Source of the DNA: Thermus thermophilus
GTDB taxonomy: Bacteria; Deinococcota; Deinococci; Deinococcales; Thermaceae
Length of the DNA stretch: 64,000 bases
Assembly: GCF_019974155.1 (NCBI RefSeq)
Contig: NZ_AP025158.1
Span: forward strand, 2,046,001 to 2,110,000
Direction: 5' to 3'
The notes beneath the pieces were generated by a model, which saw nothing but the letters and a program-made list of their open reading frames with translations, searched no databases and was not told the origin of the DNA. Both the position numbers and the translations under genes were made by a program. Shown here piece after piece: positions 24,538 through 24,873 of this stretch. How positions within the stretch are numbered: position 1 is the first letter of the stretch; the number at the start of each line of letters is the position of its first letter.

Positions 24538-24640
24538 GCCCTTATCCTAAGGGCCTTCCCGTGGTGGAGTGGCGGATTGGTGCACCCATGGAGATTGGGC
24601 GGTCCTGGACCCCTCCCGGAGGAAGCGCCCGGTGGGAAGG

Positions 24641-24676
24641 CAAAGGAAAACCGGGGGCGGCCTCCCCACCCCCGGG
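24641..24676 (-). terminator. Rho-independent terminator after the 24-residue gene
   Basis: Minus strand: CCGGGGG (24669-24675) and CCCCCGG (24651-24657) form a 7-bp stem with an 11-nt loop, followed by TTTTCCTTT. It lies about 13 nt after the stop of the small gene at 24689, giving that gene a complete transcription unit. Confidence 0.7.
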
Positions 24677-24688
24677 CCCCCTTTAGGC

Positions 24689-24763
24689 CTACTCCTCTTC
24701 CCGCTCCCCGTAGGTTTCCAGGGCCTCTTTCCAGGCCTCGCTGATGGCTTTCCCCTGCTCCAT
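24689..24763 (-). CDS. Probable 24-residue peptide
   Basis: The frame encodes 24 residues, starting MEQGKAISEAWKEALETYGE and ending in four acidic or charged residues. It is preceded by AAGGAGGTGGACC, one of the best Shine-Dalgarno sequences in the window, at ideal spacing, and followed closely by a terminator. The composition is that of a single amphipathic helix with an acidic tail. I recognise no family. Function unknown. The strong translation signals in a region of mostly leaderless genes are the main evidence that it is real. Confidence 0.55.
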   Translation of the reverse strand: MEQGKAISEAWKEALETYGEREEE

Positions 24764-24873
24764 GGTCCACCTCCTTATGCCCCAGGGTAGGGGAAGCCCG
24801 AGGGAAGCCGGGGGCTCTAGGGGGTAGACCCGTACACCCCTTGTGGGTGTAGGGACGAGGAGGCTACACCGCT

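Follow-up and report, generated by a model that had tools for sequence, protein, structure and literature searches.

We describe a 24-codon gene of Thermus thermophilus whose product probably serves the isocitrate lyase pathway as a small helper or control peptide. It lies on the minus strand of the window, by which we mean the whole stretch of 64,000 nucleotides that was analysed. The frame is a real gene, and its amino acids are under purifying selection. Its operator design is the same as that of aceA, the gene for isocitrate lyase, which is the key enzyme for growth on acetate and fats. The reading that we favour, at a probability of about 0.5, is that the peptide represents a new family that is made together with isocitrate lyase, and that, by binding through its helix to an enzyme of the isocitrate branch point, it directs isocitrate to the glyoxylate bypass. 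Proteins of such small size that modulate carbon enzymes have been described before; as far as searched, what is new is the small-protein family, the connection of its operator with aceA, and the occurrence of the family in Thermaceae.

The gene runs from 24763 to 24689 (24 codons plus the stop) and encodes MEQGKAISEAWKEALETYGEREEE. Its ATG is preceded by AAGGAGGTGGACC, with the Shine-Dalgarno sequence AAGGAGG at 24770-24776 on the same minus strand. A sequence-only reading of this DNA had already pointed out the frame, with no strand given, as well as the Shine-Dalgarno, and both were confirmed. Further upstream, also on the minus strand, we noticed a possible -10 element, TACCCT, at 24784-24789 (conserved as TACCcT; there is no clear -35) and an operator-like array, GGTGTA-N13-TACACC-N7-GGTGTA, at 24833-24870, the layout of which is found again upstream of aceA. 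Behind the stop, the terminator scan gave an intrinsic terminator-like hairpin (24675-24651, minus strand) of 10 pairs, 9 of them G-C, followed by the T-rich tail TTTTCCTTTG. A hairpin with such a tail had been recognized before, but its stem is longer than the 7 bp then assigned to it. Judged from these predicted elements, the small gene appears to have its own control region and terminator.

ATG frames of 15–50 codons with AAGGAGG at most 18 bases upstream occur twice in the window, the small gene included; the other one is a frame of 42 codons at position 667 on the minus strand. Five terminator-like sites are present in 3 kb, compared to 2.4 (sd 1.7) in shuffled sequences, and two of the five overlap at the small gene. 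A scan of the same 3 kb for sigma-70 consensus promoters listed none. The expression signals alone would be weak evidence, and we judge the gene to be real because of its conservation. The description of the region as otherwise without genes was overstated, since the small gene lies between a gene for a 231-aa protein (25569-24874, minus strand) and a DUF1028 gene (24537-23674, minus strand), which are about 340 bases apart. The 231-aa protein, which is kept beside the small gene in Thermus, has no significant match in Pfam or NCBIfam.

By blastn, the region could be found in 25 of 61 genomes, the window's own genome included, and the block that is best kept consists of the Shine-Dalgarno and the frame. 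A search profile of nine rows (eight Thermus forms and the form of G028, a genome from another genus) recovered full-length copies in 23 of the 27 Thermus genomes and in G028, although counts over related genomes such as these are not independent. Among the species that carry the gene are T. scotoductus, T. brockianus, T. arciformis, T. caliditerrae and T. parvatiensis. Whether the amino acids and the Shine-Dalgarno are kept in other Thermus genomes had been proposed as a check, and the full-length copies together with a pN/pS of 0.094 for the frame (22 distinct coding sequences) answer it in favour of the gene. In a codon test that ignores kinship (23 sequences, 22 of them distinct, without G020, which has a start two codons longer, and the interrupted copy of G016), 23 of 34 distinct substitutions were silent, while 10.2 were expected; a count of 23 was not attained in any of 20,000 simulations. 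Among the 22 distinct sequences, the variable columns number 6, 4 and 18 of 23 each at the first, second and third codon position, respectively.

An alignment of 22 loci showed four conserved blocks, namely the operator, the TACCCT hexamer, the Shine-Dalgarno (GGAGG conserved to at least 90%) and the frame. This alignment does not include G016 or the loci L006 and L023, whose printed sequence equals that of L022 around the gene. The copy in G028 (L011, position 1595) lacks a Shine-Dalgarno; its TACCCT stands 6 bases before the ATG, as in a leaderless mRNA.

Three Thermus genomes (G002, G005 and G015) are devoid of the small gene. The 231-aa gene is present in them, and behind it the array, the promoter region, the frame and the terminator are all missing, so the cassette behaves as one unit. 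In G016, the first 15 codons end one contig (L025 1-335) and the last codons are located on another (L027 1501-1576). The second contig starts, ahead of these last codons, in a gene for a helix-turn-helix protein that is weakly similar to insertion-element transposases, and this copy appears to have been interrupted by an insertion. With a core profile, seven of 50 Thermaceae gave no detected copy, yet aceA was found in all seven. The seven genomes and the seemingly broken frame of G016 indicate that the peptide is dispensable, and the presence of aceA where no small gene was detected suggests that it would tune the pathway rather than permit it.

The sequence-only reading had missed that the gene belongs to a wider family. 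When the nine-row profile was run against genus g4 (18 genomes) and genus g5 (two genomes), its best match was the C-terminal end of a short ORF in 16 of the former (E 3e-4 to 0.11) and in both of the latter (E 3.5e-7 and 3.5e-4). We take these genera to be Meiothermus and relatives. Their proteins have 36 residues in g5 and 53–65 residues in g4, and they share, with single departures, a motif SxAWxEALExY(G/D) close to the C-terminus. GGAG or GGAGG precedes the chosen start in 17 of these 18 relatives, the starts having been chosen by hand with the Shine-Dalgarno in view. With the core profile, 43 of 50 Thermaceae each gave a single copy, a count that is not independent because the profile was built from members, and no relative appeared at E 0.02 or better in 61 other Deinococcota. 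In one scan that also took in genomes outside the Deinococcota, all 10 confirmed loci belonged to Thermus. Inspection by eye showed that the genes around the small gene vary from one genus to another.

The peptide is acidic (pI 4.4), and the hydrophobic moment of its first 19 residues is 0.39, a value reached by 1.2% of shuffles; for the consensus it is 0.43, reached by 0.1% of shuffles. For a 64-residue member from g4, AlphaFold2 (19 sequences) predicted one helix at residues 35–58 and a low-confidence N-terminus, with pLDDT block means of 72 (residues 31–40), 92 (41–50) and 94 (51–60), an overall value of 70 and a pTM of 0.38. The helix covers the part of this longer relative that matches the Thermus peptide, which suggests that the Thermus form is essentially a lone helix. 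The acidic amphipathic helix that had been proposed for the peptide is in agreement with both these values and the model of the longer relative. The Thermus peptide would then be mainly one helix. It is the shortest form of the family, and the part that all forms have in common is a predicted C-terminal helix, SxAWxEA(L/M)ExY(G/D). Pfam and NCBIfam contain no family that matches the peptide, PHROGs gave no significant match (best E 0.16) and a plasmid search gave none. The matches in the PDB were discarded as chance (the best, at E 3.1, is a designed protein). Among the papers listed in a literature search with thin coverage of subscription journals, none deals with the small gene or with a regulator that acts on aceA in Thermus.

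The operator in common with aceA, which had also escaped the sequence-only reading, provides the link to metabolism. Upstream of the small gene, the core array has the spacing GTGTA-N13-TACAC-N9-GTGTA. The pattern GGTGTA-N12/13-TACACC occurs at 37 places in 27 Thermus genomes: 22 at the small gene, 10 upstream of ppdK (pyruvate phosphate dikinase), one upstream of aceA and four left unassigned, the assignment having been made by hand with the help of coordinates. Three further places match the longer array pattern, and all of them precede aceA; the identity of isocitrate lyase at these three places and in G061 was given by NCBIfam. We found aceA in 49 of 50 Thermaceae. Upstream of it, there are 96 GTGTA/TACAC boxes in 30 regions, compared to 8.9 in shuffled sequences, and 87 boxes in 19 regions, compared to 10.1.

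A looser form of the array (GTGTA-N14-ACACC-N7-GGTGT with at most one mismatch) was searched in 50 Thermaceae genomes. It returned 64 match rows, 13 at the small gene (13 genomes), 50 at aceA (26 genomes, most sites being read on both strands) and one at ppsA; the pattern was chosen after aceA had been seen, and the aceA figure is descriptive. The reversed pattern, used as a control, gave one match in the 50 genomes. The lone match outside aceA and the small gene is located in G027 (L191, around 1501-1536) between ppsA, encoding PEP synthase, and the gene for the PpsR regulatory protein, both of which were named by NCBIfam. Ten of the 23 full-length Thermus copies were missed by the loose pattern, and these ten have a 12-base spacer. 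The strict pattern GTGTA-N12/13-TACA misses 26 of the 30 aceA regions (from Thermus, G028, G035 and G064), because the first letter of the second box is usually C or A where the small gene has T.

In genus g4, GTGTA-N12/13-TACA precedes the small gene in 15 of 16 genomes (shuffle mean 0.11). In the exception, G061, there is no array; only 14 bases separate the small gene from the stop of the aceA gene ahead of it, and the small gene has a Shine-Dalgarno of its own. In the two g5 genomes, 6 boxes were counted in total, which do not show the N12/13 spacing, and this spacing is also missing at the small gene of G028 and G016. The operator that is common to both genes in most genomes and the operon-like order in G061 both point to a link with aceA.

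Since the small gene has the same operator design as aceA, its product is probably made along with the enzymes of the glyoxylate bypass and gluconeogenesis. Going by the operator, the peptide would appear when these pathways are turned on, as on acetate or fatty acids. The face of the helix that is formed by Trp, Ile, Leu and Tyr would then bind either isocitrate lyase or isocitrate dehydrogenase, the enzymes of the isocitrate branch point, and the activity of the bound enzyme would change such that isocitrate is directed to the bypass. It is from co-regulation alone that we infer a target at this branch. A narrower proposal, which we regard as rather doubtful, is that the one-helix peptide of the Thermaceae is a protein switch of the isocitrate branch point that holds back isocitrate dehydrogenase or activates isocitrate lyase. 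If this were true, a stoichiometric peptide would stand in the place of the phosphorylation switch that enteric bacteria operate with AceK. The isocitrate dehydrogenase kinase/phosphatase AceK is expressed with aceA and directs isocitrate to the bypass; the proposed job is the same, but AceK is a large enzyme, whereas Thermus would use a helix of 24 residues. If the peptide controls the isocitrate branch point, few protein regulators of a central enzyme would be shorter. Its host is a model thermophile, with enzymes that are stable and easy to purify. A gene of 24 codons, a size often missed by gene finders, gains a family, a regulon and candidate partners.

The small protein could also be real and belong to the same regulon, but act on another target. 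Candidates would be the transcription factor that binds the GTGTA boxes (as feedback), pyruvate phosphate dikinase or 2-oxoglutarate dehydrogenase. The gene of pyruvate phosphate dikinase, ppdK (loci L241-L263), has GTGTA-N13-TACAC upstream in all 23 Thermaceae genomes in which it was found; in the window genome, the site is C1:1419152-1419176. As ppdK carries part of the same operator, the target of the peptide could lie in gluconeogenesis. Moreover, the window genome contains a single TACACC-N7-GGTGTA (L119 1501-1519, C1:139775-139793) between two divergent genes, one from the enoyl-CoA hydratase family and the other odhA, which encodes the E1 component of 2-oxoglutarate dehydrogenase. However, in the 50 genomes the three-box layout was detected only at the small gene, at aceA and at one ppsA site. 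At E 1e-60, ppdK was found neither in those g4 and g5 genomes that have the small protein nor in G010, G014, G021 and G025 (G021 is 87% and G025 65% complete). A tie to ppdK in place of aceA was rejected for the same reason, since no g4 or g5 genome yielded ppdK. We consider another target within the regulon possible, if somewhat unlikely.

If the ppdK sites are taken together with the arrays of aceA and the small gene, the regulon looks like one of glyoxylate bypass and gluconeogenesis, which suggests that one regulator may serve both pathways. The GTGTA array offers a handle on this regulator in Thermaceae. Its half-site and the N13 spacing fit the site of a YtrA-type GntR regulator from B. 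subtilis, which is similar to AGTGTA-N13-AACACT, and a regulator of this type is a possible lead. The available part of PMC4494728 names no Thermus site for YtrA-type regulators. The CRP-family protein TTHB099 was rejected as the regulator: its consensus, as given in PMC7662524, is a 16-bp palindrome TGTA-N8-TACA, versus TGTA-N13-TACA here.

The reading that we prefer, a peptide made with isocitrate lyase and acting at the isocitrate branch point, can be compared with three described proteins. VcdP from Vibrio cholerae (29 aa) binds to citrate synthase, an enzyme of the TCA cycle, and makes it more active (PMC8672173, available sections). Like the Thermus peptide, it is a tiny protein under a carbon regulator, in its case CRP, but according to the same sections it comes from a dual-function base-pairing RNA, whereas the Thermus locus shows no conserved RNA segment. 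AcnSP from Synechocystis (44 aa) tunes aconitase, another TCA-cycle enzyme (PMC7336809, in the excerpt available), and if the proposed role holds, the Thermus peptide would likewise be a small protein tuning an enzyme of this cycle. AcnSP resembles the N-terminus of its target (same excerpt), while the Thermus peptide is not clearly similar to AceA. When the peptide was compared to AceA and to parts of PpdK and OdhA, the best match was with OdhA, and 32 of 300 shuffles equalled or surpassed it. A copied piece of the target, as in AcnSP, is not favoured, since neither AceA nor the segments of PpdK and OdhA gave a similarity clearly above the shuffles. AzuC from E. coli, which is encoded by a CRP-repressed unit, raises the activity of the carbon enzyme GlpD (again PMC8672173, available sections). 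It is encoded on a dual-function RNA, and its regulator and organism differ from those of the Thermus peptide.

An RNA that both encodes a peptide and regulates by base pairing has precedents in carbon metabolism, namely VcdRP and AzuCR, and the Thermus gene might be a third case. Its transcription unit is short and has a strong terminator-like hairpin, and the 144-nt RNA folds somewhat better than its shuffles (z -2.2, with 4 of 200 shuffles as good). However, the sequence 3' of the stop is not conserved among the relatives, many of which show G+C-rich inverted repeats there, and the variation within the frame follows codons. As no conserved segment is present behind the stop in the 22 aligned loci, we rejected the dual-function RNA and regard it as very unlikely.

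A leader peptide or attenuator that acts on the downstream gene is even less probable. The window does have a DUF1028 gene in the same direction about 150 bases further on, but the gene in this position changes between species (in G010 it is typA, on the opposite strand), and there is no conserved co-directional gene. Furthermore, in G005 and G015 the next gene in line, without any cassette before it, closely resembles the DUF1028 gene, and the sole run of a single amino acid in the peptide is the final EEE. A chance frame that was kept through an overlapping conserved DNA or RNA element deserves next to no credence: the genome is GC-rich, and 65 ORFs of at least 20 aa overlap a 6-kb stretch, but the silent-site pattern in the codon test, the retention of start, stop and Shine-Dalgarno, and the presence of short homologues in other genera, where the flanking DNA differs, speak against it. 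Unless its substitution pattern stems from misalignment, the codon test refutes this reading.

We also observed an apparent remnant of another gene downstream of the small one. On the plus strand of the window, positions 24588-24637 contain the first codons of typA (the BipA GTPase), reading GAPMEI, and within a few bases its last ones, VLDPSRRKRPVG. By its sequence, this stretch is apparently the deletion scar of typA. At the corresponding place, G010 carries an intact typA (L264), identified as TypA by NCBIfam.
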